From: Clostridia bacterium
Lineage (GTDB): Bacteria; Bacillota; Clostridia; Acetivibrionales; DSM-27016
DNA length: 64,000 bases
Assembly (NCBI GenBank): GCA_026414765.1
Contig: JAOAIJ010000021.1
Location: 186,001-250,000, forward strand
Direction: 5' to 3'
In this document: one piece after another, positions 31,122 through 46,535 of the stretch
Position numbering within the stretch: the first letter of the stretch is position 1
How the letters are laid out: each line of letters opens with the position of its first letter
The notes under the pieces: generated by a model
Told to the model about the DNA's origin: nothing
Seen by the model: the letters and a program-made list of their open reading frames with translations, nothing else
Database searches by the model: none
Program-made: the position numbers and the translations under genes

Positions 31122-32135
31122 TTAAATTGTTCTATCTACTGCTGCCGCAACCTTTCTGAATTCTTTCATTAACTGTGCAAATTTCGACGGACGTAATGAC
31201 TGAGGTCCATCACAAAGGGCCGTACTTGGGTCCGAATGCACTTCGATAATCAACCCGTCTGCACCTGTTGCTATTGCACCTTTTGCCAGTGAACCGACAT
31301 ATTTCCACGCACCTGTTGCATGACTGGGGTCAACAAATATCGGAAGATGTGAATTTTCTTTTACTACAGGTATCGCACTTAAATCCAGCGTATTCCTTGT
31401 TGCTGTTTCAAAAGTCCGTACACCCCTTTCGCAAAGTATAACATCCGGGTTGCCGGAGGATATTATATATTCTGATGCCATAAGCCATTCTTCTATTGTT
31501 GCAGATAAGCCTCTTTTAAGAAGTACCGGCTTTTTACACATACCCACCTCCTGGAGGAGTCTGAAATTCTGCATATTCCTTGCACCTATCTGGATTATGT
31601 CTGCATATGAATTTACCAATTCCACATCACGTGTATCTACGACCTCAGTAACTATTTTCATGCCAGTTGCTTCTCTGGCTGCTGCCATAATCTTTAACCC
31701 GTCTTCTTCTAGTCCCTGGAAAGCATAAGGGGACGTACGGGGTTTAAAAGCTCCTCCTCTAAGTATTTTTGCACCTGCCTCTTTTACTTTAATAGCAGTT
31801 TCTATAAAAGTTTCTTCGCTCTCAATGGCACAGGGGCCTGCCATCACAACTATTTCATCCCCGCCAATCTTAATATCTCCCACCTCAATAATGGTAGGAA
31901 CCTGTTTAAGCTCACGGCTTGCAAGCTTGTAAGGTTTCATAATCGGTACAAGGTTTTCTACACCAGGCATTGATATGATAGAATGTGTATTAAGCAGTCT
32001 TTTATCTCCAATTGCTCCTATAACTGTTTTGATTTCCCCAAAAATGGGATGAGTTCTAAAACCCAGATCCGATAACTTCCGTTCTACATTGTCGATTTCT
32101 TCCCTTGTAGCTGTTGAGCTCATTACAATAATCAT
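31122..32135 (-). CDS. aroF: 3-deoxy-7-phosphoheptulonate synthase
   Basis: 337 aa DAHP synthase of the AroAI-beta (AroF) type: an N-terminal ferredoxin-like regulatory domain (about 1-75) and a TIM barrel. Motifs include [34 protein letters not shown] and [11 protein letters not shown], with the metal-binding Cys, His, Glu and Asp set. It condenses PEP and erythrose 4-phosphate, the entry step to all aromatic amino acids. I use ATG 32135, which has GGAGG 7 nt upstream. A T-box riboswitch leader precedes it. Confidence 0.94.
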
Positions 32136-32216
32136 AACATAACCTCCCATAATACTAATCTCGATTAAAGTTTTTTGAATTTAAGGGACAGTATCCCCGG
32201 TTTTTGATAAATTATA

Positions 32217-32589
32217 AAATAAAAACTCCTCGTCTCAAACAAGTCATTGACCTGTCTGGGACGAGGAGTATATTCTCCACGCGGTACCACCCATATTGGA
32301 CTACTCAGAAATATGTAATCCCTCTTTAATGTACGGGAAAATAAGAATCCGATACATTTCTTCTCTTAACGGTGAAGAATCCGGTTTAGCCTACTCGATA
32401 AAAATCTTTATTCTATCATAGGGAAACATGGTTTCCGCTAATGGTTCAGCCAACAGCTCAAAGGAGAACTTCGGTTACTTTTACTTTTCCGGACTTTCAC
32501 CATCTCCGGATCGCTTTAAAAGTATATATACACTTGATTAAGTGGATAAGTAACTTACTTTTCCTTATCATTGCTTTTAAATTTTTATT
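32217..32589 (-). promoter_or_regulatory. T-box riboswitch controlling aroF, specifier UUC (Phe)
   Basis: On the minus strand a T-box core TGGGTGGTACCGCG (32294 to 32281) precedes a terminator whose arms are 32257-32269 and 32225-32237, followed by T-rich sequence. Upstream is a Stem I in which AAGGA pairs with TCCTT and GTTACTT with AAGTAAC. The specifier loop between them reads CGAAG-UUC; alignment with the GAA-xxx-xCC-TxTGAG pattern of known leaders gives UUC at 32468-32466. Uncharged tRNA-Phe should then stabilise the antiterminator and switch on aroF. Phe is inferred by alignment, not proven. Confidence 0.88.
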
Positions 32590-35237: not shown

Positions 35238-36017
35238 TTAAATCATTGTCGATAATATAAATGAAGAAATAATTGTAATGGTGAAAAAAACAAGTACGAA
35301 GTAGTCCATACTTTGCATCTTAATCTCCTTGTAGTGAGTACGTTTTCCAGACCCAAAACCCCGCACTTCCATGGAAATTGCCATTTTCTCAGTCTTTTTT
35401 ACCGATGAAACCAGCAAGGGGACGGCAAGAGGGATTACGATTACAAGCTTCTTAAAAGGGTTTCTTGTATCAGAGTGATAGCCCCTTGACATCTGTGCTT
35501 GCAGTATCTGTTCCATTTCACCCATAAATGTGGGTATGAAACGGAGTGCTGTAATAAACATAAATGAATACTTAAAAGGAACTTTTAGTTTCTCAACCAT
35601 AACTACTACTATATCGGTCATTGGTGTAGTCATTATCATGATAGGAATGGCAGAGACTGTAGAAAGCATCCTCAGAGCCATTGTGAGGCTGAGGATGAGA
35701 CCTGTATCTGTAATTCTTCCTTTATTAAAATAGGGTATAGCATAAAACAATGTGTTTCCATCTGTGACAAAGAAAATCTGACATAGAACCAGAAAAAGAG
35801 AAAATATAAACAATCCTTTGACTATTGGCAAAATTTGTTTAAATACACCACTTACAGCCGCAACTAAAAGATTTGTTACAAATATGACCAGGATTATCAA
35901 TGGTTGGCTAAACATGAAACTAAGCGCTAAAACAACAAACGTCCAAATGATCTTAGTAATAGGGTTTAGCCTGTGTACAAACGAATCTTTAGCTATATAT
36001 TCAACCATTGCAGGCAT
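35238..36017 (-). CDS. ecfT: ECF transporter transmembrane subunit EcfT
   Basis: 259 aa from ATG 36017 with GGTGAG upstream. It has about five membrane segments and two cytoplasmic coupling-helix motifs of the A-R-G type: MSRGYHSDTRNPFKK and MEVRGFGSGKRTHYKE. EcfT joins the two ATPases to a substrate-binding S protein. It is the last gene of a minus-strand cluster S-A-A-T and overlaps the preceding ATPase gene by 17 nt. Confidence 0.88.
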   Translation of the reverse strand: MPAMVEYIAKDSFVHRLNPITKIIWTFVVLALSFMFSQPLIILVIFVTNLLVAAVSGVFKQILPIVKGLFIFSLFLVLCQIFFVTDGNTLFYAIPYFNKGRITDTGLILSLTMALRMLSTVSAIPIMIMTTPMTDIVVVMVEKLKVPFKYSFMFITALRFIPTFMGEMEQILQAQMSRGYHSDTRNPFKKLVIVIPLAVPLLVSSVKKTEKMAISMEVRGFGSGKRTHYKEIKMQSMDYFVLVFFTITIISSFILSTMI

Positions 36018-36837
36018 TTTTCTCACCACCCGTAAGTAATAATATTTCATTAAACATATCTTCTACTGTATATGCGTTTTTAAAGAGGCCTTGCTTGTGG
36101 AATTTTCTGGCCAACAGGTATATCTGAGGTGAGTGAAGCTTTGCAAGTGAAAGACTTTCTGTCTTGCCAAGAACTGTCTCAGCAGGTCCATCTTCGAGTA
36201 TCTGTCCTTTATACAGAATAATAACCCGTTTAGCATATCTGGACACAAGCTCCATATCATGTGTTACGAATATGATTGTTTTTCCGGACATATTAAGCAG
36301 CTTTATTATCTCCATTATCTCTATGCTTTCCTGATAGTCCTGTCCTGTAGTAGGCTCGTCGAGTACTATGACTTCCGTTTCCATTGCTAATACTGAAGCC
36401 AGGGCAATACGCTGGCGCTGACCTTTACTGAGTGAAAACGGATCTGATCCGAGGTGGCCGGATAGGCCTACATTTTCTGCAGCAAGCCGTACGTGCTTAT
36501 CAATATACTCCTGGCTTTTTCCTAAATTTTTAAGTCCGAAAGCTATTTCATCAAATACAGTACTGCAAAAAATCTGGTGATCCGGATTCTGAAAAAGAAA
36601 TCCTATATGCTGTGCCAACGAACTGGTTTTAGCAGAACAGACATCCACACCATTTACCGTTATTTTACCTTTTGTGGGCTTAAGAAGGCCGTTGAACTGC
36701 TTGAGCAATGTAGTTTTTCCTGCACCATTCTGGCCGATTATGGCGGCAAACTCTCCCGTCTTAATTGAGAGATTCAAATCTCTCAATACCTGGATTCCGT
36801 TTGTATATTCATAGCTAAGATGTTCTATATGAATCAT
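36001..36837 (-). CDS. ecfA: ECF transporter ATP-binding subunit (EcfA)
   Basis: 278 aa ABC ATPase. Walker A IIGQNGAGKTT near residues 35-45, Q-loop LFQNPDHQ, signature LSKGQRQR (Lys in place of the usual second Gly) and Walker B VIVLDEPTTGQD. Energises substrate uptake with EcfT and the S subunit. ATG 36837 follows GGAGG; the frame is open further upstream but that extension is not ABC-like. Separated by about 200 nt from the other ATPase gene. Confidence 0.88.
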   Translation of the reverse strand: MIHIEHLSYEYTNGIQVLRDLNLSIKTGEFAAIIGQNGAGKTTLLKQFNGLLKPTKGKITVNGVDVCSAKTSSLAQHIGFLFQNPDHQIFCSTVFDEIAFGLKNLGKSQEYIDKHVRLAAENVGLSGHLGSDPFSLSKGQRQRIALASVLAMETEVIVLDEPTTGQDYQESIEIMEIIKLLNMSGKTIIFVTHDMELVSRYAKRVIILYKGQILEDGPAETVLGKTESLSLAKLHSPQIYLLARKFHKQGLFKNAYTVEDMFNEILLLTGGEKNACNG

Positions 36838-37034
36838 TTTTTTCCTCCAAAGCTTTTTAAGGGCTAAACAATATACTTCAGTGACTAAGTAATGACACCC
36901 GGTAGTGAAGATAGCAGCAGACAACATAATAAAGTTGGCCTGTGTGACCAACCCTATCATTTAGATGTATCGATAATTGTATATCTATTGTAAAAGAACC
37001 TGCATATATGTCATAAGGGTAATAAGTTCTCTGC

Positions 37035-37883
37035 TTACGATAAATTTTTTAACACCTTGCTTATAGCCATAAATGCTTCTGCTACATCCACAGGTATTTC
37101 ACCGTTGTAAAGTCCTTCATTTTTCAGCATTGAAACCAACCTTGTCACGGGTGCACAGCTTACACCCAGTTCCTGCAAAATATCCTGCCGGGAAAGTACA
37201 TTTCGGGTCGGACCGTCTATAATAATACTTCCCTTGTTCATAACAACCAAACGGGAGCAGTATTCTGAAACAAGCTGCATTTTTTGCTCGACAACTACTA
37301 CTGTGATATTAAATTCGGTATTTAACTTTTTAAGAGTTTCAAATACATCAAGGCTTCCCAGAGGGTCAAGTTCGGATGTTGGTTCATCCAAAACCAATAC
37401 TTTTGGTCTTAGTGCTATTGCAGCAGCTATTGCGACTCTTTGCTTCTGGCCACCCGAAAGCCTCACTGTTGATGAGTGTCTGAGGTGGGATATCCCTGCG
37501 AGTCTCAGGCTTTCTTCTATACGATTCTCCATTTCTGGTTTTGGTATACCCATGTTTTCCAAACCAAAAGCTATCTCTTCTTCTACAATAGAAGATACTA
37601 TCTGAGCCTCCGGATCCTGAAACACACTTCCGATTGAATAAGCAAGGACAGCACAGGTATTATCCACTGTATCCCTGCCATCTATAATTACATGACCGTA
37701 ATAGTCGCCATTCTGAAAGTGAGGTACTACTCCGTTAAGACAAAGAGTAAGGGTTGATTTTCCTGCACCTGTAGGGCCTATTATGCCTACGAACTCACCT
37801 TCCGAAATATTCAGGTCTATATTTTTTAGCGCAGCTTCTGCCGAGCCTGTATAGTTGAATGTAAGATTTTTGATATCAATCAT
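37035..37883 (-). CDS. ecfA: ECF transporter ATP-binding subunit (EcfA, second copy)
   Basis: 282 aa ABC ATPase with Walker A IIGPTGAGKST, Q-loop VFQDPEAQ, signature LSGGQKQR and Walker B VLVLDEPTSELD. It would form the heterodimer with the other ATPase. It starts 12 nt after the S-component gene ends, so the two are co-transcribed. Having a complete private A-A-T set suggests a dedicated (group I) ECF transporter for the neighbouring S protein. Confidence 0.88.
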   Translation of the reverse strand: MIDIKNLTFNYTGSAEAALKNIDLNISEGEFVGIIGPTGAGKSTLTLCLNGVVPHFQNGDYYGHVIIDGRDTVDNTCAVLAYSIGSVFQDPEAQIVSSIVEEEIAFGLENMGIPKPEMENRIEESLRLAGISHLRHSSTVRLSGGQKQRVAIAAAIALRPKVLVLDEPTSELDPLGSLDVFETLKKLNTEFNITVVVVEQKMQLVSEYCSRLVVMNKGSIIIDGPTRNVLSRQDILQELGVSCAPVTRLVSMLKNEGLYNGEIPVDVAEAFMAISKVLKNLS

Positions 37884-37895
37884 TATAGCCTCTTA

Positions 37896-38462
37896 TCAAT
37901 CTTTTTTTCCTAAAGCGGTTTTAATAGGATAGTATAAAACCTGTGCAATTATAGTGTTTACTACGGCCGTTACTATGACTACAGTCAGCAGGTAAGTAAA
38001 TGTAGGATTTTTTTTCACTTCCACAAACAGAATAAGGAATTTTAGTGTAGTGATATAAGTAAGTCCACTTGCCAGAGTACCAATGAAAGTAACTAAGGCC
38101 GGCTTAAGTGAAAATTTCTTTACAGACGGTTTGAAAGGAAGCATTGTAAGCCCATATGCCACCAGTAGTCCTACAGGTTCGCTCAGAAAATTAATGTAGG
38201 GGATAAGTGATTTTGTTGTGAAATGGCACACAGCAGCTGCAACTAAACTGATACCTACAGCTTCAAGGAATTTTGGTCTGATAAGAATAATTGCAAGACA
38301 GTACATACCGATGACAAAGTTTGGCGTTATACCGAATACCTGTGGTGCATATAGTCTTAGTACTGCTCCTGCTGCGAGTAAAATTCCTACTAATACTACA
38401 TCGACTGCCTGCATACCTTTCTTTGCTGAAACTTCTCTTTTTTGCATTGCTACATTTTCCAT
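37896..38462 (-). CDS. ECF substrate-binding (S) component, probable tryptophan transporter
   Basis: 188 aa with about six hydrophobic segments, small size and position at the head of an ecfAAT cluster: the properties of an S component. The N-terminal tail is charged, followed by VVLVGILLAAGAVLRLYAP, reminiscent of TrpP-like S proteins. The leader carries a GAG-repeat array like that of the trp operon, the reason to suggest tryptophan as substrate. That is inference from regulation; the sequence alone does not fix the ligand. Start ATG 38462 lies 10 nt after GGAGG. Confidence 0.7.
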   Translation of the reverse strand: MENVAMQKREVSAKKGMQAVDVVLVGILLAAGAVLRLYAPQVFGITPNFVIGMYCLAIILIRPKFLEAVGISLVAAAVCHFTTKSLIPYINFLSEPVGLLVAYGLTMLPFKPSVKKFSLKPALVTFIGTLASGLTYITTLKFLILFVEVKKNPTFTYLLTVVIVTAVVNTIIAQVLYYPIKTALGKKD

Positions 38463-38560
38463 AAAAATACAACCTCCTTAATATACTGTTGAGTTCTGTG
38501 AGAAGAAGGTTGAGATTTGCACATTAATCAATTATTTATACTATCTGAAATAATTTCTGA

Positions 38561-38589
38561 TAATAAAAATAGCCAGGATAAACCCGACT
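38561..38589 (-). terminator. Attenuator terminator in ECF leader
   Basis: Minus strand stem AGTCGGG with CCTGGCT (7 bp with two wobbles), 5-nt loop, then ATTTTTATT. It lies about 25 nt after the GAG array and about 100 nt before the S-component start, so it would stop transcription inside the leader. Confidence 0.65.
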
Positions 38590-38613
38590 ATGTAACATCA
38601 TATTGATAGTAGG

Positions 38614-38656
38614 CTCATCTCGTCTCATCTCGTCTTAAATTTTCTCATCTCTTCTC
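38614..38656 (-). promoter_or_regulatory. GAG-triplet array, candidate TRAP site in ECF leader
   Basis: On the minus strand GAG occurs at plus positions 38654, 38649, 38644, then 38629, 38624, 38619 and 38614, every one on the same 5-nt register. The two in-phase positions between them (38639 and 38634) read AAT and AAG. Seven intact triplets of nine in phase match the (G/U)AG-NN pattern bound by the 11-subunit TRAP protein. A terminator follows. MtrB binding is inferred. Confidence 0.7.
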
Positions 38657-38669
38657 AAAACCAATTAAC

Positions 38670-38701
38670 ATTATAGTAACATTAAAGATTTCAAATGTCA
38701 A
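38670..38701 (-). promoter_or_regulatory. Promoter of the ECF transporter operon
   Basis: Minus strand: TTGACA at 38701-38696; TACTAT at 17-nt spacing (38678-38673) or TATAAT at 38675-38670 with a longer spacer. The transcript would begin just before the GAG array. Confidence 0.55.
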
Positions 38702-38745: not shown

Positions 38746-39981
38746 TCAGCTTTCACGGTAATCAAGAATTCTTTTACTTTTCTTTTCACTTCTGGGAAGT
38801 TCCCCAATATTATATGCTTCTGCACTTATGAGAATGCCTATGCGCTTTTTGAATAGGTCGGTTACATTTTTTTCTACTGCTTCTTTATCAGCAGCATATT
38901 CTTTTTCAACCTTAAGGGTCATCATATCTTTTCCATCCAAATGACTGATTACTACCTGATACTCACTGCTTGCCCCAGCTGCTTCCTTCAGAAGTTCGTC
39001 AATCTGTCCGGGATAAATATTAACCCCTTTTACCTTAACCATATCATCGGTCCTTCCAATGATTCTGTCATGACGGGGATAGGGTAGACCACACGGACAG
39101 GTACCGGGGATTATCCGGGTCAAATCACGTGTTCTGTACCTTAAAAGGGGAGCGCCCTCTTTTTTCAGTGTAGTAATGACAAGTTCCCCATATTCACCGT
39201 CATTAAGGGGATTACCTGTAACAGGGTCAATTATTTCAAAATAAAGGTAATCATTCCAGTAATGCATCCCCGTATGATAATCACAATCTATGGAAATACC
39301 CGGCCCGTATATTTCAGTAAGGCCGTATATATCATAGATTTCTATGCCCAGTTCATTCTTGATTCTTGAACGCATTTTTTCGCCCCAGCGTTCCGAACCT
39401 ATAATTCCTTTTTTTAGTTGAATGCTTTCTCTAATCTTTCTTTTCTCTACCTCTTCTGCCAGAACAAGAGCATAGGAGGATGTAGCTACAAATGCAGTAG
39501 ATTTCAGGTCGATCATCATCTGGAGCTGTTTGTCTGTATTTCCCGGTCCCATTGGAATAGCCATAGCTCCGAGCTTTTCAACACCTGCCTGAAAACCTAT
39601 GCCAGCCGTCCATAATCCATAACCAGGGGTAATCTGTACTCTATCGACAGAAGTAACTCCGGCAGTTTTAAAACACCTGGCCATCATTTCTGCCCAGTCA
39701 CTGACATCATTGGCGGTATAGGGAATTATTACAGGCCTACCTGTAGTTCCTGAAGAAGAATGAATCCTCACAATTTCTTCGTCATGTACTGCCTGCAGCC
39801 CAAGGGGGTAGGCATCACGCAGCTCATCCTTTGTAGTAAAGGGAAGCTTTTGTATGTCTTCAGAGGTTTTTATATCCTCAATGCTGATTCCGCAAGAAGA
39901 AAACTTCTGTTTATAAAATGGACTGTTTACTGATATTCTTTCCAAAAGATGTTTTAGTTGATTGAACTGAGTGTCTCTCAT
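38746..39981 (-). CDS. paaK: Phenylacetate-CoA ligase-like enzyme
   Basis: 411 aa AMP-forming CoA ligase. Motifs: SSGTTGRPVIIPYT (ATP binding), YGLTEIYGPG, YRTRDL and the C-terminal GRTDDMVKVKGVNIYP region. It activates phenylacetate or other arylacetates to the CoA thioester. It lies just downstream of iorA-iorB on the same strand, the usual clostridial partner of IOR. Start ATG 39981 is embedded in GAG triplets; an upstream in-frame ATG at 40032 is possible but lacks a site. In this setting it may activate indole-3-acetate and phenylacetate for reductive carboxylation by IOR; inference. Confidence 0.85.
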   Translation of the reverse strand: MRDTQFNQLKHLLERISVNSPFYKQKFSSCGISIEDIKTSEDIQKLPFTTKDELRDAYPLGLQAVHDEEIVRIHSSSGTTGRPVIIPYTANDVSDWAEMMARCFKTAGVTSVDRVQITPGYGLWTAGIGFQAGVEKLGAMAIPMGPGNTDKQLQMMIDLKSTAFVATSSYALVLAEEVEKRKIRESIQLKKGIIGSERWGEKMRSRIKNELGIEIYDIYGLTEIYGPGISIDCDYHTGMHYWNDYLYFEIIDPVTGNPLNDGEYGELVITTLKKEGAPLLRYRTRDLTRIIPGTCPCGLPYPRHDRIIGRTDDMVKVKGVNIYPGQIDELLKEAAGASSEYQVVISHLDGKDMMTLKVEKEYAADKEAVEKNVTDLFKKRIGILISAEAYNIGELPRSEKKSKRILDYRES

Positions 39982-39996
39982 CTCGTCTCTCTCCTC
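39975..39996 (-). promoter_or_regulatory. GAG-triplet cluster over the paaK-like start codon
   Basis: Minus strand GAG at plus positions 39994, 39991, 39987, 39982 and 39977, mostly spaced by two bases, spanning the ribosome-binding site and ATG (39981). Such clusters at starts are how TRAP blocks translation in Bacillus. Only about five triplets are present, so the site would be weaker than the trpE array, and part of it is coding. Confidence 0.4.
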
Positions 39997-40156: not shown

Positions 40157-40747
40157 CTAAAGATTATTAACTGAATCATAGCCTGAGTTTAAGGCCTTTA
40201 TATTTAAATTCAGATATTTTTCAGGTACATTTTCTTTTATAGCTTTCTCAAGGCTTTCTTTTGAAAAGGGCAGCATTCCTGCGGCGCAGGCAGCACCTAA
40301 CAGAACGATATTAACCGCTTTAACAGAGCCGGCCTTTTCTGCCAGGGAATAACCGTCAATAAAAACAGCTTTTGGAACGTTTTTCTTAATAAAACCGATT
40401 ATTTCATCCGAATCATAAGCGGAGTTTCCCAGGGAAGCCGTCACTGGTTTGATAATCTGAGTATTAATAATGCACTTGCCGCCTTTTTTTAATCTGGGAA
40501 GGCTGCGTGCCGCTTCAGCCAACTCAAAGGCTATAATAACGTCGGAAGTACTCATGGGAATTATAGGACTCGAAGCACTGCTGTCTACCCTTACATGGCT
40601 GACAACGGAACCTCCTCTTTGAGCCATACCTATAGTTTCTGAAGTTCTGGTAAACAAACCTGCATCTATAGCAGCCAGAGCAATCATTCTTGAGGCCAGT
40701 ACAGTACCTTGTCCGCCAACTCCTGCGATCAATACGTCATATTTCAT
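40157..40747 (-). CDS. iorB: Indolepyruvate:ferredoxin oxidoreductase, beta subunit
   Basis: 196 aa gamma-domain type subunit of the 2-oxoacid:ferredoxin oxidoreductases. The N terminus GVGGQGTVLASRMIALAA and the later RTSETIGMAQRGGSVVSHVR are diagnostic. With IorA it interconverts aryl pyruvates and aryl-acetyl-CoA plus reduced ferredoxin. It overlaps the end of iorA by 4 nt, showing translational coupling. Confidence 0.93.
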   Translation of the reverse strand: MKYDVLIAGVGGQGTVLASRMIALAAIDAGLFTRTSETIGMAQRGGSVVSHVRVDSSASSPIIPMSTSDVIIAFELAEAARSLPRLKKGGKCIINTQIIKPVTASLGNSAYDSDEIIGFIKKNVPKAVFIDGYSLAEKAGSVKAVNIVLLGAACAAGMLPFSKESLEKAIKENVPEKYLNLNIKALNSGYDSVNNL

Positions 40748-42537
40748 TTATCAGCACCCCCTACAGCATCAAATGGACAAATTTGTGAACATAAGGTACA
40801 TCCGTAGCACAAGGAAGGTTCGATGGAAACCTTGCCTTCCATAAAAGACATGGCCGGGCAACCGATCTCTTTTATACATTTTTTGCATGAGGTGCATTTT
40901 TCATTTATATGCAATTTCTTTGAAGGCTTAAATAAAGAAATGCAAGGAGCTTCAAATATCACTACTGAAGGTCCTTTAAAATTAACAGCTTCACGGACAG
41001 CTTCTACCGCATCCTGCAATTCAAACGGATTTACCTTCGATACATATTTTACCCCGCATGCAGATACAAGCGCGAAGATGTCTATTTTTCCGGACTCTGT
41101 ACCCATCATTGTTTTGCCGATTCCAGGGTGCGGTTGATGACCTGTCATTGCTGTCGTACTGTTGTCAAGAATAACAACAGTAATATCCGTATTGTTATAT
41201 ACCGCATTGATTATTCCTGGTATTCCTGTGTGGAAGAAAGTGGAATCGCCTATAAAAGCGATATGGTCTGCATCAGGCTCTGAACGGTGCAGTCCCTGAG
41301 CTATAGTAATTCCAGCACCCATGCACAAACAGGTATCCACCATTTCCAGGGGTTTGGCATTACCCAAGGTATAGCAGCCGATATCTCCGGTGAATACTGC
41401 TTTTTTTTTCTTCATAGCCATCTTTACAGAATAAAAAGCACCTCTATGAGGACAGCCAGCACAAAGAACGGGAGGTCTTACAGGTAGCTGAGGAACCTGT
41501 AAAGAAGCTTCTGCTGTTTCTCCTGACTCTAATCCAGAAAATTTCATGATTGCTGACTTAACCAACTCAAGACTATACTCACCCGCAAAAGGCAGGTCTT
41601 TGGATTTCTTTCCTGATATTTCTGGTTTACCGTTATTTCCGGCACTAAGAAGCAAAAGTTCTTCTTCAATCACAGGATCGAGCTCTTCCAGCACCAATAC
41701 CTTATCCAGGCCATCTATAAATTCTTTTGCCAGCTGTGTGGGAAGCGGATAAGGCGTACCGACTTTTAGCACCTTTATATCCAGTTTCAGCATAGATAAT
41801 GCCTCAACTGCATATGAGTATGCAATACCTGATGCTGCAATGCCGATTTTTCCGAAACCTGTTATTCCGTTATATTTACTTGATGAGAAAATCTCGCTTA
41901 ATTTTTCTTGCAGACTTTCTATATGAATATGCTTTTTGTAGGAAAGGCTGGGGAAAATCACCCAGCGGGGATCTTTTTCAAAACCCTCTATTTTGTGGCA
42001 GACGGCAGTATTAGTAATATCAATTGTACTGCATGAATGGCAAATTCTTGTTGTAGGCCTCAAGAATACAGGAAGCTGAGTCTGCTCGGAAAGCTCGAAA
42101 GCAGACTGTATCATTTCATAAGCCTCTTCTGGTGAAGAGGGATCAAAAACCGGCAGATTGGAAAAACGCGCAAAATGTCTTGTATCCTGTTCTGTCTGGG
42201 AAGAAAACGGTCCCGGATCATCTGCGACAAGCACTACCAGTCCACCCTTTACACCAATATATGCAAGGCTCATCAATGGATCGGACGCTACATTCAGCCC
42301 TACCTGTTTCATGGTTACAAGTGCTCTCGCTCCTGCATATGATGCTCCTGCAGCTATTTCCATTGCTACTTTTTCATTTACGGACCATTCTACATATATA
42401 TCCCCGGGATTATTTTCGGCTATTGTTTCAAGTACCTCGGTAGATGGTGTTCCAGGGTAACCTGACACAACATTTACACCTGCTTTTATGGCACCCAAGG
42501 CAATAGCTTCATTACCCATCAGCAGTTTCTTTGACAT
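40744..42537 (-). CDS. iorA: Indolepyruvate:ferredoxin oxidoreductase, alpha subunit
   Basis: 597 aa TPP enzyme. N-terminal pyrimidine-binding domain with GYPGTPSTEV, central region, C-terminal PP domain with GDIGCYTLG and the GDSTFFHTG...N TPP motif, and a final 4Fe-4S ferredoxin domain with CTSCKKC..C and CYGCTLCSQIC clusters. It handles phenyl-, hydroxyphenyl- and indole-pyruvate, and runs in either direction depending on ferredoxin. The gene heads the minus-strand iorA-iorB-paaK group next to the divergent trp operon. Confidence 0.94.
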   Translation of the reverse strand: MSKKLLMGNEAIALGAIKAGVNVVSGYPGTPSTEVLETIAENNPGDIYVEWSVNEKVAMEIAAGASYAGARALVTMKQVGLNVASDPLMSLAYIGVKGGLVVLVADDPGPFSSQTEQDTRHFARFSNLPVFDPSSPEEAYEMIQSAFELSEQTQLPVFLRPTTRICHSCSTIDITNTAVCHKIEGFEKDPRWVIFPSLSYKKHIHIESLQEKLSEIFSSSKYNGITGFGKIGIAASGIAYSYAVEALSMLKLDIKVLKVGTPYPLPTQLAKEFIDGLDKVLVLEELDPVIEEELLLLSAGNNGKPEISGKKSKDLPFAGEYSLELVKSAIMKFSGLESGETAEASLQVPQLPVRPPVLCAGCPHRGAFYSVKMAMKKKKAVFTGDIGCYTLGNAKPLEMVDTCLCMGAGITIAQGLHRSEPDADHIAFIGDSTFFHTGIPGIINAVYNNTDITVVILDNSTTAMTGHQPHPGIGKTMMGTESGKIDIFALVSACGVKYVSKVNPFELQDAVEAVREAVNFKGPSVVIFEAPCISLFKPSKKLHINEKCTSCKKCIKEIGCPAMSFMEGKVSIEPSLCYGCTLCSQICPFDAVGGADK

Positions 42538-42889: not shown

Positions 42890-42944
42890 TAGTTTAGAGT
42901 TTAGATGAGTTTAGTGAGTTTGAGAAGAGATGAGAAGAGACGAG
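42890..42944 (+). promoter_or_regulatory. TRAP-type binding site: 11 (G/U)AG triplets in trpE leader
   Basis: Triplets are TAG at 42890, 42895, 42902, GAG 42907, TAG 42912, GAG 42916, 42922, 42927, 42932, 42937 and 42942: eleven, nearly all with two-base spacers (5-nt period). Eleven matches the number of subunits of the TRAP ring. The 3' end of the array can pair in part with the terminator's 5' side (GGCG with CGCC and AGAAG with CTTCT), giving a possible antiterminator. By the Bacillus model, tryptophan-loaded TRAP would free the terminator. Confidence 0.82.
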
Positions 42945-43089: not shown

Positions 43090-44574
43090 GTGTTTTATCC
43101 TACTCTTGATGAAGTAAAGGTTTTAGCAGAGAACCACAATTTAATACCGGTTACCATGGAAGTTTATGCCGATATGGAGACTCCCATCAGTCTGTTTAAA
43201 AGATTTGAAGACTGTAGCTATTGCTTCCTGCTTGAAAGTGTGGAAGGAGGAGAAAAATGGGCAAGATTTTCTTTTATTGGCAGAAATCCTTTCATAACTC
43301 TGAAATGCATTAACAATTCAGTGATTATCGAGGATAGCAATGGTCATGTTACGGAAAATAGCGGTAACCCTATAGAAGTATTAAGAGACTTGATGGGGAA
43401 ATACAAGGCTGCGGACTTGACAGGTACACCCAGGTTTAATGGTGGGGCTGTAGGTTTTTTTGGTTATGACCTTATCAGGTATTATGAGAACCTGCCCAAT
43501 ACGGCATGTGATGAATTGAAACTTCCCGACTGCCATTTCATGTTTACAGACGAAGTGCTGGTTTTTGACCATCTGAAGCAGAAGATACACATTGTTGTCA
43601 ATCTCCATGTTAACGGAAATATAGAAAGGGCTTACAACAGCACTGTAGAAAAAATCAAGGGAATATATAGGGAAATTCTTTCAACAAGATGGAAAATAGC
43701 CGATAATTTTAAACCTGATTTCGGAAGGGCTAAAAGTAAATTCGTATATACCAGCAATATTGATAAGGAAACATACTGCAGCAATGTTAGAAGGGCAAAG
43801 CAGTATATTAAGGACGGAGATATATTTCAGGTTGTTTTGTCGCAAAGGTTGTGCGTAGAAACCAAACAGGATCCCTTTAACGTATATAGGGTGCTGAGAG
43901 TAATAAATCCTTCGCCGTATATGTATTATCTGAAATTCAAGGATTACAGGGTAGTGGGCTCTTCACCGGAAATGCTTTGCCGTGTGGAAGACGGCTTGGT
44001 TGAGACATGTCCTATTGCGGGTACTAGGAAGAGAGGAAAGACCTTGCAGGAAGATGAAGCCCTGGAAAGGGATCTGCTGAGTGATGAAAAAGAACTGGCA
44101 GAACATACTATGCTCGTAGATCTGGCCAGGAATGATGTAGGTAAGGTATCAAAGTACGGTACTGTAGAAGTGAAAAATCTGATGCATATAGAGAAATACT
44201 CCCATGTAATGCACATTGTCACAAACGTTCAGGGTGTAATCAGCGACAATAAAACAGCTTTTGATGCACTTATGTCAATACTGCCTGCAGGTACATTATC
44301 AGGAGCGCCAAAGGTCAGGGCTATGGAGATAATTGATGAGCTAGAAACTGTTAAGAGGGGAACGTATGGAGGCGCAATAGGATACTTGAGTTTCAACGGC
44401 AATCTTGACAGCTGTATTACTATAAGAACCATGGTATTCAAAGACAGTAAGGCTTATGTACAGGCCGGAGCAGGAATAGTAGCAGATTCTGACCCAGAAA
44501 AGGAATATGAAGAATCAATAAACAAGGCTACAGCATTGCTTAAGGCACTTGAGGAAGTAGGTGAAATAAGATGA
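43090..44574 (+). CDS. trpE: Anthranilate synthase component I
   Basis: 494 aa. Converts chorismate and glutamine-derived ammonia to anthranilate. The feedback (tryptophan) site motif LLESVEGGEKW near the N terminus and the catalytic C-terminal motifs (SPEMLCRVEDG, PIAGTRKRG, GAPKVRAMEIIDELE, GGAIGYLSF, QAGAGIVADS) are all intact. GTG 43090 follows AGGGGG. First gene of a complete trp operon, with trpG overlapping its stop by 4 nt. Confidence 0.96.
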   Translation: MFYPTLDEVKVLAENHNLIPVTMEVYADMETPISLFKRFEDCSYCFLLESVEGGEKWARFSFIGRNPFITLKCINNSVIIEDSNGHVTENSGNPIEVLRDLMGKYKAADLTGTPRFNGGAVGFFGYDLIRYYENLPNTACDELKLPDCHFMFTDEVLVFDHLKQKIHIVVNLHVNGNIERAYNSTVEKIKGIYREILSTRWKIADNFKPDFGRAKSKFVYTSNIDKETYCSNVRRAKQYIKDGDIFQVVLSQRLCVETKQDPFNVYRVLRVINPSPYMYYLKFKDYRVVGSSPEMLCRVEDGLVETCPIAGTRKRGKTLQEDEALERDLLSDEKELAEHTMLVDLARNDVGKVSKYGTVEVKNLMHIEKYSHVMHIVTNVQGVISDNKTAFDALMSILPAGTLSGAPKVRAMEIIDELETVKRGTYGGAIGYLSFNGNLDSCITIRTMVFKDSKAYVQAGAGIVADSDPEKEYEESINKATALLKALEEVGEIR

Positions 44575-45457: not shown

Positions 45458-45468
45458 AAATGTGAAAT

Positions 45469-45495
45469 AGATGAGATTTGATGAGAGGAGAGAGT
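45469..45495 (+). promoter_or_regulatory. GAG-triplet cluster over the trpD ribosome-binding site
   Basis: TAG 45469, GAG 45474, then GAG 45484 and 45489 lie on one 5-nt register, with extra overlapping GAG at 45486, 45491 and 45493. The last ones form the trpD Shine-Dalgarno. A bound TRAP protein could block trpD translation, but purine-rich ribosome-binding sites contain GAG by nature. Confidence 0.35.
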
Positions 45496-45500
45496 AAGTT

Positions 45501-46535
45501 ATGATAAAAAGTGCAATCCGGAAGCTTGCAGAAGGTCAGGACCTGACTGAAACTGAAATTATGGAGGCTATGAACTGTATCATGGAGGGCGAGGCAACTC
45601 AGGCACAAATAGGCAGTTTCATTACTGCTCTGAGGATAAAAGGCGAGTCTATAGAGGAAATAACGGGATGTGCAAGGGTAATGAGAGAAAAAGCAGACAG
45701 GATTCAGCCTGATGTTCCTTATTATATTGATACATGTGGTACAGGCGGCGATGGTGCAAATACATTTAACATATCTACCGCTTCTGCATTTGTTGCAGCT
45801 GCGGGAGGGGTAGTAGTCGCAAAGCATGGAAACCGGTCAATTTCGAGTAAATGCGGGTGCGCTGATGTACTTGAGGCTTTTGGAATAAATATTTCACTGA
45901 CTCCTGAACAGGTTAAGTGCTGTATAGAAAAAGTGGGTATAGGCTTCATGTTTGCACCTGCATTCCATAAGTCTATGAAGCATGCTGCAGGGCCTAGGCG
46001 TGAGCTTGGAATAAGGACGATATTCAATATCCTCGGGCCATTAACAAACCCTGCAAATGCCAACGGGCAGGTACTGGGGGTATTTGACGGCAGGCTTACA
46101 GAACCTGTGGCAAATGTCCTGCTGAATCTGGGTGTGGAAAAAGCAATGATAATACACGGGAACGATGGGCTGGATGAAATAACCGTTGCTGACGAGACCA
46201 TGGTTTCGGAGGTAAAAGACGGAAAAGTAACAAGCTATAGGATAAGTCCTGAAGAGTATGGTATAAGAAGAGCAGCAGCAGACGAACTTAAGGGTGGGGA
46301 TGCACAGCATAATGCAAAAATCATCACTGATATTTTTAGCGGAGAAAAAGGAGCAAGGCGTGATATAGTGCTGCTTAATGCTTCCGCTGCTCTATATATA
46401 GGAAAATTGGCCGGTAGCATAAAGGACGGAATCGAATTAGCCGCAGATATTATTGATTCCGGAAAGGCGATAAAAAAGATAAATGAGTTGAGAGAATACA
46501 CGCAAAGTTTCGTACAAGGTGAAAAGGTTGGTTGA
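45501..46535 (+). CDS. trpD: Anthranilate phosphoribosyltransferase
   Basis: 344 aa. Transfers the phosphoribosyl group of PRPP to anthranilate. Motifs DTCGTGGDGANTFNIST, KHGNRSISSKCGCADVLEA and the HGNDGLDEIT region bind PRPP-Mg and anthranilate. It is not fused to trpG. The start follows the purine-rich GAGGAGAGAG stretch after a 43-nt gap from the chorismate mutase gene. Confidence 0.96.
   Translation: MIKSAIRKLAEGQDLTETEIMEAMNCIMEGEATQAQIGSFITALRIKGESIEEITGCARVMREKADRIQPDVPYYIDTCGTGGDGANTFNISTASAFVAAAGGVVVAKHGNRSISSKCGCADVLEAFGINISLTPEQVKCCIEKVGIGFMFAPAFHKSMKHAAGPRRELGIRTIFNILGPLTNPANANGQVLGVFDGRLTEPVANVLLNLGVEKAMIIHGNDGLDEITVADETMVSEVKDGKVTSYRISPEEYGIRRAAADELKGGDAQHNAKIITDIFSGEKGARRDIVLLNASAALYIGKLAGSIKDGIELAADIIDSGKAIKKINELREYTQSFVQGEKVG

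Follow-up and report, generated by a model that had tools for sequence, protein, structure and literature searches.

What controls an ECF transporter operon whose leader carries a regular row of GAG triplets, and what does the encoded importer carry? This question is raised by the DNA analyzed here, which we refer to as the window (64,000 nt; assembly GCA_026414765.1, contig JAOAIJ010000021.1, positions 186,001-250,000, forward strand). Such triplets bring to mind TRAP, a regulator familiar from textbooks and characterized chiefly in B. subtilis, and a first-pass annotation of the window had proposed a dedicated tryptophan importer under transcription attenuation. The array and its conservation, its co-occurrence with mtrB, the terminator-like hairpin, the TrpP family match and fold, and the gene order are, very probably, best explained by the leader of a trpP-ecfA-ecfA'-ecfT operon encoding a TRAP-controlled tryptophan importer. 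The array and genes concerned, together with a second array in the window, are:

38614..38656, minus strand: candidate TRAP-binding array (from its sequence, its chain score and its retention in relatives)
37896..38462, minus strand: trpP, ECF S component of 188 residues (PF17099; AlphaFold model; structural matches)
37035..37883, minus strand: ecfA, ATPase of the dedicated module (family matches)
36001..36837, minus strand: ecfA', second ATPase (family matches; the ORF opens at 36960, and a start near 36837 is likely since homology to ECF ATPases begins at residue 43 of the ORF)
35238..36050, minus strand: ecfT, CbiQ-type transmembrane coupling protein (PF02361, 138 bits)
42897..42944, plus strand: array of the trp operon leader, a sister element (score 25.8; terminator stem from 42975; trpE at 43090)

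The names of trp and other enzymes in the window are readings of the ORFs unless a family match is cited.

On the minus strand, positions 38656-38614 read GAG AA GAG AT GAG AA AAT TT AAG AC GAG AT GAG AC GAG AT GAG, i.e. nine in-phase positions on an exact 5-nt register, comprising seven GAG, one AAG and one AAT. The seven GAG triplets reported at first pass are thus borne out, AAG and AAT being the two in-phase positions described as degenerate. Counted as the NAG repeats of a TRAP target RNA, there are eight in nine positions, with 2-nt spacers and one gap at AAT; this falls slightly short of the 9-11 repeats that the excerpts of PMC4347634 cite for TRAP, and the arrays of relatives are both longer and shorter. 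The commonest repeat spacing over arrays scoring at least 13 is 5 nt. The chain score of the array is 19.5, compared with a maximum of 13.6 in 80 first-order Markov-shuffled 64-kb strands, and the sole higher array in the window is that of the trp leader. A pattern search of the window's own genome (six repeats, two mismatches) returned seven matches, both arrays included, and 11 with the pattern reversed; at least four in-phase GAG triplets occur in just two of the seven, i.e. the trpP-leader and trp-leader arrays. Backward reading of the arrays is an uninformative control because GAG is the same in both directions.

The trpP product matches the TrpP family (PF17099) over residues 22-184 with 34 bits, the cut-off being 27.2, and a TrpP match at E <= 0.01 is likewise obtained for each of the 18 aligned relatives; the NCBIfam search gave no name for the trpP product. 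A search of solved structures with the TrpP profile returned no sequence relative at E <= 1, and the predicted fold was therefore used. The trpP product is predicted to have an S-component fold, its AlphaFold model (pLDDT 88.6, 32 sequences) showing the expected six helices. The best 22 VIA-align rows for this model are ECF S components, with Z from 14.8 to 7.7 and the next row at 6.3, although values under about 13 may reflect a common helical arrangement; two of the 22 rows, 4m5b and 4m58, we take to be ECF S components. The best Foldseek E value was 0.026. Helix 1 contains G26xxxA30, an instance of the small-xxx-A motif described for ECF S components in PMC5037267, with G or A followed by A at these positions in 18/18 aligned rows.

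The S, A, A' and T genes stand in one row in a predicted operon, which is the gene order of Group I ECF importers, and the family match, predicted fold and downstream EcfA, EcfA' and EcfT genes agree with the earlier description of an S component with its own A, A and T genes. Homologues of both EcfA and EcfA' follow trpP at 29/29 strong loci of the phylum, at 15/15 loci of the order (L003-L017), and at 7/7 loci of a named set, three of these seven duplicating L003, L005 and L007. The window's own genome has four CbiQ-type genes, including that of the trpP operon; one of the others (contig C40) is accompanied by EcfA but by no S gene within the inspected stretch, and two lie beside CbiM-like genes, a label read from the sequences.

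A search with the S protein gave a match in 17 of the 60 nearest genomes, a set that includes the window's own; one match (L018) is spurious, having 23% identity and an unrelated place. An array scoring at least 18.8 precedes trpP in the other 16. The phasing of the GAG triplets is kept in the leaders of relatives, the comparison which the first-pass annotation had offered as a check on its reading; a loss of phasing, which it had named as refuting, was not observed. The named set includes Petroclostridium sp. X23 and Pseudobacteroides cellulosolvens; L024, from the same set, has a leader score of 8.4, a short run of 11 over the start, and a strong terminator.

The genome of the window has one mtrB gene, on the same contig (E 3.2e-40), whose product can be aligned to solved TRAP chains along 63-69 residues. 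In one alignment to solved TRAP it retains the KLDKGEV and KIRG segments, which we take to include RNA-contacting lysines and an arginine of TRAP. Within the order, mtrB is present in 53/58 genomes, own included; anti-TRAP (PF15777), sought in the window's own genome, gave no match. At the level of the phylum, 398 genomes were searched by alignment; 73 have a TrpP homologue, and 200 of the 398 are mtrB positive. Arrays were scored at 73 loci from 72 genomes, the own genome and the order's relatives standing outside this table, and an array was counted when it scored at least 10 within 450 nt upstream of, or over, the trpP start. By this measure arrays are present in 44/44 mtrB-positive vs 1/28 mtrB-negative genomes (Fisher 6e-19, genomes being treated as independent); tabulated by genus, which is safer as genomes share kinship, the counts are 32/32 vs 1/19. 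The threshold of 10 was picked after the scores had been seen; at 13, the first threshold used, the counts are 42/44 vs 1/28 genomes. The mtrB-negative exception, G142, is a 450-contig assembly, and in the window's own order G005 has an array with no mtrB match; both may reflect assembly gaps. A control over 93 loci gave scores of at least 10 in 66 sense upstream regions, no antisense region and one region within the gene. Both this and the leader analyses described below were done without L018 and without the duplicates L002, L021, L022 and L023 (which repeat the DNA of the window, L003, L005 and L007, respectively). The co-occurrence and the 93-locus control together indicate that the array tracks TRAP and not the gene alone, and they argue strongly, from comparative sequence, that the trpP operon acts under TRAP, which would bind the array.

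These results bear on a reading in which the array is a product of chance or of coding and the operon is not controlled by TRAP. Purine-rich DNA can give GAG repeats, and two positions of the register are degenerate, as such a reading would allow; however, the array lies in a non-coding place, outscores 80/80 shuffled strands, is kept in relatives and is divided between mtrB-positive and mtrB-negative genomes as described above, such that we regard this reading as highly improbable. A chance origin of the array was rejected on the basis of the shuffled strands, the mtrB co-occurrence and the antisense and within-gene controls.

If control is by TRAP, the question becomes at which level it operates. 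The leader contains, in order of transcription, the following elements:

38673..38701, minus strand: promoter-like TTGACA-17-TACTAT of the trpP operon (10/12 matches in a consensus scan)
38606..38619, minus strand: predicted antiterminator 5' strand GAUGAGCCUACUAU, including the last GAG (MFE of the free leader)
38562..38591, minus strand: intrinsic terminator with a stem-loop at 38591-38569 and a U-rich tail at 38568-38562 (-10.7 kcal/mol; terminator scan)
38503..38512, minus strand: anti-Shine-Dalgarno (anti-SD) strand CAACCUUCUU (folding with the array blocked; duplex energy)
38470..38479, minus strand: Shine-Dalgarno (SD) helix strand AAGGAGGUUG of trpP (leader folding)

The TTGACA-type promoter proposed at first pass corresponds to this near-consensus site, but the scan is weak evidence alone, with two promoter-like sites compared with 1.7 in shuffles. 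A perfect TATAAT at 38675-38670 is an alternative -10 element with an unfavorable 20-nt spacing, and TTGAC(A/T) stands, by eye, at the same place in many of the relatives' leaders. The Rfam scan returned no element at gathering score in the trpP leader, the two matches in the window being a T-box elsewhere and a tRNA. That T-box leader (32254-32580, minus strand; 106 bits) lies before a gene at 31122-32150 read as DAHP synthase.

The terminator stem has nine pairs, a loop of 5 nt and the tail TTTTATT (one found vs 0.1 in shuffles); it begins 22 nt after the last GAG and not 25 nt as previously noted. The strongest hairpin of ten shuffled window leaders reaches -11.0 kcal/mol, compared with -10.7 for the real terminator. 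In the MFE structure of the free leader, GAUGAGCCUACUAU pairs with the 5' arm and loop of the terminator; the free RNA is predicted to adopt the antiterminator (-18.9 kcal/mol), with the terminator loop base-paired to the last repeat, GAUGAG. By equilibrium folding, the probability of the terminator in the window leader rises from 0.02 when free to 0.98 when the array plus 5 nt is blocked, a free value as low being found with 3% of 200 shuffled upstream sequences. For a truncated window transcript, the terminator-arm value is 0.82 when free, 0.81 with the array blocked, 0.42 with a further 3 nt blocked and 0.33 with a further 5 nt; since blocking the array alone does not free the terminator arm, a small overhang of the TRAP footprint (3-5 nt) was assumed. 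Further downstream, CAACCUUCUU pairs with AAGGAGGUUG once the array is blocked, giving a duplex of -13.0 kcal/mol (0/50 shuffles as low), and pairing of the SD rises from 0.24 in the free RNA to 0.99 upon blocking of the array; the distance from the end of the array to the trpP start is 151 nt. Because the leader also holds this SD-sequestering hairpin, control is probably dual, i.e. transcriptional and translational, rather than transcriptional alone. The attenuation initially proposed is supported with this amendment; the antiterminator and SD switches, and the split between the two levels of control, are predictions from folding.

In the mechanism we propose, tryptophan would be the signal and TRAP the binder of the leader RNA. 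When tryptophan is plentiful, the tryptophan-loaded TRAP ring would wrap the GAG array of the nascent RNA; occupying the last repeat, which also belongs to the antiterminator 5' strand, it would allow the terminator to form, and transcription would stop before trpP. Should a transcript escape termination, its array, being occupied, could not pair with the anti-SD strand, which would then fold onto the ribosome-binding site and block translation. When tryptophan is scarce, release of TRAP would restore the antiterminator and an open ribosome-binding site, and the importer would be made.

Leaders with arrays, 44 in total including that of the window, were compared. Loci under the array threshold (L024, L051, L054, L055 and L068, the last of which passes with a longer region) were left out of the leader set, and L007, L077 and the ten loci of genus g5 (L008-L017) were left out of the switch and swap folding. 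Outside genus g5, a hairpin of -10 kcal/mol or lower with a U-rich tail follows the array in 32/34 leaders, the two misses being L007, with a truncated gene and a terminator visible by eye, and the GC-rich L077; in 3/32 cases (the window, L061 and L074) the strongest of ten shuffled leaders matches the real terminator. The ten g5 loci keep the array, and their terminators are weak, unclear or have a poor tail. Their arrays begin with AAGUAGAG in 10/10 cases, and the anti-SD strand holds the complement CUCUAC in 9/10 (by eye); in the nine g5 leaders that were folded, the SD is closed with or without TRAP. The terminator of L008-L017 looks eroded, and in several of these loci a U-run follows the SD hairpin, which could thus double as a terminator. 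Over all leaders, the SD duplex lies at or below 4% of shuffles in 17/44.

Folding comparisons gave a mixed picture. A terminator switch appears at equilibrium in 8/32 leaders, the window included, and is absent in the trp leader of the same genome; equilibrium folding was rejected as a general proof of the switch, failing for most relatives as well as for that trp leader. The antiterminator duplexes of leaders are stronger with their own sequences, at -11.25 vs -10.02 when swapped between species (0.001 of 5000 permutations), a gap to which composition shared within lineages could contribute; the window duplex ranks fourth of 32.

It could be argued that TRAP acts at translation alone, as for Bacillus trpP, the terminator-like hairpin being weak and without a role. 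The strength of the SD duplex and its closure on array blocking are in accord with this proposal, as are the g5 leaders, which keep the array and SD hairpin with unclear terminators, the shuffled leaders that equal the window hairpin, and the translational control of B. subtilis trpP by TRAP reported in the excerpts of PMC13170310. However, the terminator and its U-rich tail recur in nearly all leaders outside g5, most of which are without an SD hairpin, and in the window the terminator lies close behind the array and is predicted to compete with an antiterminator in which the last repeat takes part. We therefore consider control at translation alone unlikely, and favor attenuation combined with SD closure.

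The position of the array differs between two sets of TrpP homologues. For strong homologues (26 mtrB-positive loci of L049-L077), the array lies 52-320 nt upstream of the match, the array at 52 nt, in L068, reaching the ribosome-binding site; for weaker homologues, 18 mtrB-positive loci have an array over or adjoining the start, as in B. subtilis. This suggests that the TRAP-importer link has been kept across the sampled phylum in two architectures, one being an ECF operon under attenuation and the other a ribosome-binding site that is covered. By eye, a second NAG cluster lies near the trpP start of L064, L066, L070, L073 and L074, suggesting two TRAP sites per mRNA. Four mtrB-negative genomes (L079-L082) have a TrpP homologue within open frames of 431-495 residues and no arrays; in three of them an EcfT match precedes the TrpP homologue, suggesting an EcfT-TrpP fusion.

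With respect to the substrate, TRAP might bind as proposed while the importer takes up a different pathway compound, such as indole, indoleacetate, anthranilate or another aromatic. The absence of an NCBIfam name, the modest Pfam TrpP match, and the neighboring iorAB-paaK genes, which handle arylacetates, leave room for this. On the other hand, every aligned relative matches TrpP, loss of the B. subtilis member gives 5-fluorotryptophan resistance according to the excerpts of PMC13170310, and tryptophan itself is the simplest substrate for an importer repressed by tryptophan-loaded TRAP; a different ligand is thus quite improbable, and we infer that tryptophan is the likely ligand of the importer.

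The neighboring genes are themselves of interest in this regard. An iorA-iorB-paaK group lies upstream of the trpP operon on the same strand, and its features are:

40744..42537, minus strand: iorA, indolepyruvate:ferredoxin oxidoreductase (IOR) alpha (TIGR03336, 786.9 bits, cut-off 650.9)
40157..40747, minus strand: iorB, indolepyruvate:ferredoxin oxidoreductase beta (PF01558; NCBIfam IOR beta below cut-offs)
39977..39996, minus strand: short NAG array with four in-phase GAG over the paaK ribosome-binding site and start, a proposed TRAP translational site (score 10.5; orthologue conservation)
38746..39984, minus strand: paaK-like AMP-forming aryl-CoA ligase (Pfam AMP-binding domains; start ATG 39984 inferred)

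The best NCBIfam match of the ligase is PaaK, below its cut-off, and its specificity is presumed to be for indoleacetate. Because the repeats are partly coding (MRREQ-like starts), the paaK array of the window alone would be weak; in most g5 loci, and likewise in L133, further repeats precede the start. A NAG array covers the start region in 18/20 orthologues (66-100% identity, own genome included), with scores from 9.0 to 23.1, of which 16/18 are at or below 0.005 against 200 shuffles, L127 and L139 being at 0.04 and 0.07. The two orthologues with no array (66-67% identity; G001 and G041) score 5.5 and 5.3; G001 has mtrB, and G041 is without an mtrB match. None of the ten paaK paralogues with a fetched locus scores above 6. 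These sequence comparisons make the paaK start array (L122-L139 and the window) a candidate new TRAP target; no TRAP site was seen by eye before iorA in the window and the relatives inspected. A ligase repressed by tryptophan would fit tryptophan synthesis from indoleacetate, not breakdown. In L019, L020 and L024, iorA-iorB-paaK follow ecfT on the same strand, and import and salvage may there share one operon. Elsewhere in the window, the plus strand at 45468-45494 reads TAG GAG TTG GAG GAG GAG (score 10.5) before a trpD-like ORF at 45501, a possible further TRAP site.

Comparison with characterized systems helps to define what is distinctive. In the B. subtilis trpEDCFBA leader, as in the window leader, G/UAG repeats are separated by 2-3 nt; its antiterminator, which competes with a terminator, and its SD hairpin, formed further down the RNA when TRAP binds, have counterparts in the window leader that are predicted from folding (excerpts of PMC3913778 and PMC11255114). 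The B. subtilis leader, which also has a 5' stem-loop, has eleven repeats and precedes biosynthetic genes, whereas the window leader has nine positions and serves a transporter operon. B. subtilis trpP (yhaG) likewise has a TRAP array on a gene for a TrpP-family tryptophan transporter. There, TRAP covers the translation initiation region and control is translational, as the first-pass annotation had correctly stated (PMC13170310 and PMC11255114, in excerpts); in the window, by contrast, the array ends well before the start, a terminator intervenes, and trpP heads an ecfA-ecfA'-ecfT operon. Since B. subtilis TrpP is itself counted among six ECF S proteins in the excerpts of PMC11487621, what sets the window system apart is its leader together with its dedicated A-A'-T module, not S-protein status. 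Group I ECF systems such as YkoEDC and BioMNY similarly have an operon in which the S component is encoded alongside dedicated A and T genes (PMC5037267, in part); YkoEDC, however, imports thiamine under the control of a THI-box riboswitch, in place of the presumed tryptophan ligand and TRAP control of the window importer. In Bacteroides, an AMP-forming arylacetate-CoA ligase adjoins IOR genes, as here, and the excerpts of PMC13285125 suggest that the pair makes aromatic amino acids from arylacetates, as in methanogens; unlike that ligase, the window ligase has a TRAP-like array at its start codon, pointing to repression by tryptophan.

Previous work has thus established TRAP and the code of its arrays, the control of the trp leader in B. 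subtilis at both levels, and the translational control of trpP (PMC3913778, PMC4347634, PMC11255114 and PMC13170310, in excerpts). Among the literature matches listed (titles and starts of abstracts), there was no TRAP-attenuated ECF trpP operon, an earlier mention being possible as key older papers fall outside that scope, nor any TRAP site at paaK, for which an earlier mention is likewise possible. As far as searched, TRAP, TrpP and their link are known, and the form with an attenuator and a dedicated ECF module is new.

The overall results lead us to propose, with about even confidence, that outside Bacillus TRAP runs a full tryptophan supply regulon, comprising trp synthesis, trpP-ECF import (by attenuation and SD closure) and iorAB-paaK indoleacetate salvage (where TRAP would prevent the ligase from being translated). 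The TRAP-TrpP link would then be old, and the site on Bacillus trpP would represent one of its two architectures. The link between TRAP and the importer makes tryptophan the likely ligand of a dedicated ECF module and, if the ligase is repressed by tryptophan, the IOR pathway would run towards tryptophan synthesis. The correlation of mtrB with the array also provides a ready means of annotating such importers.
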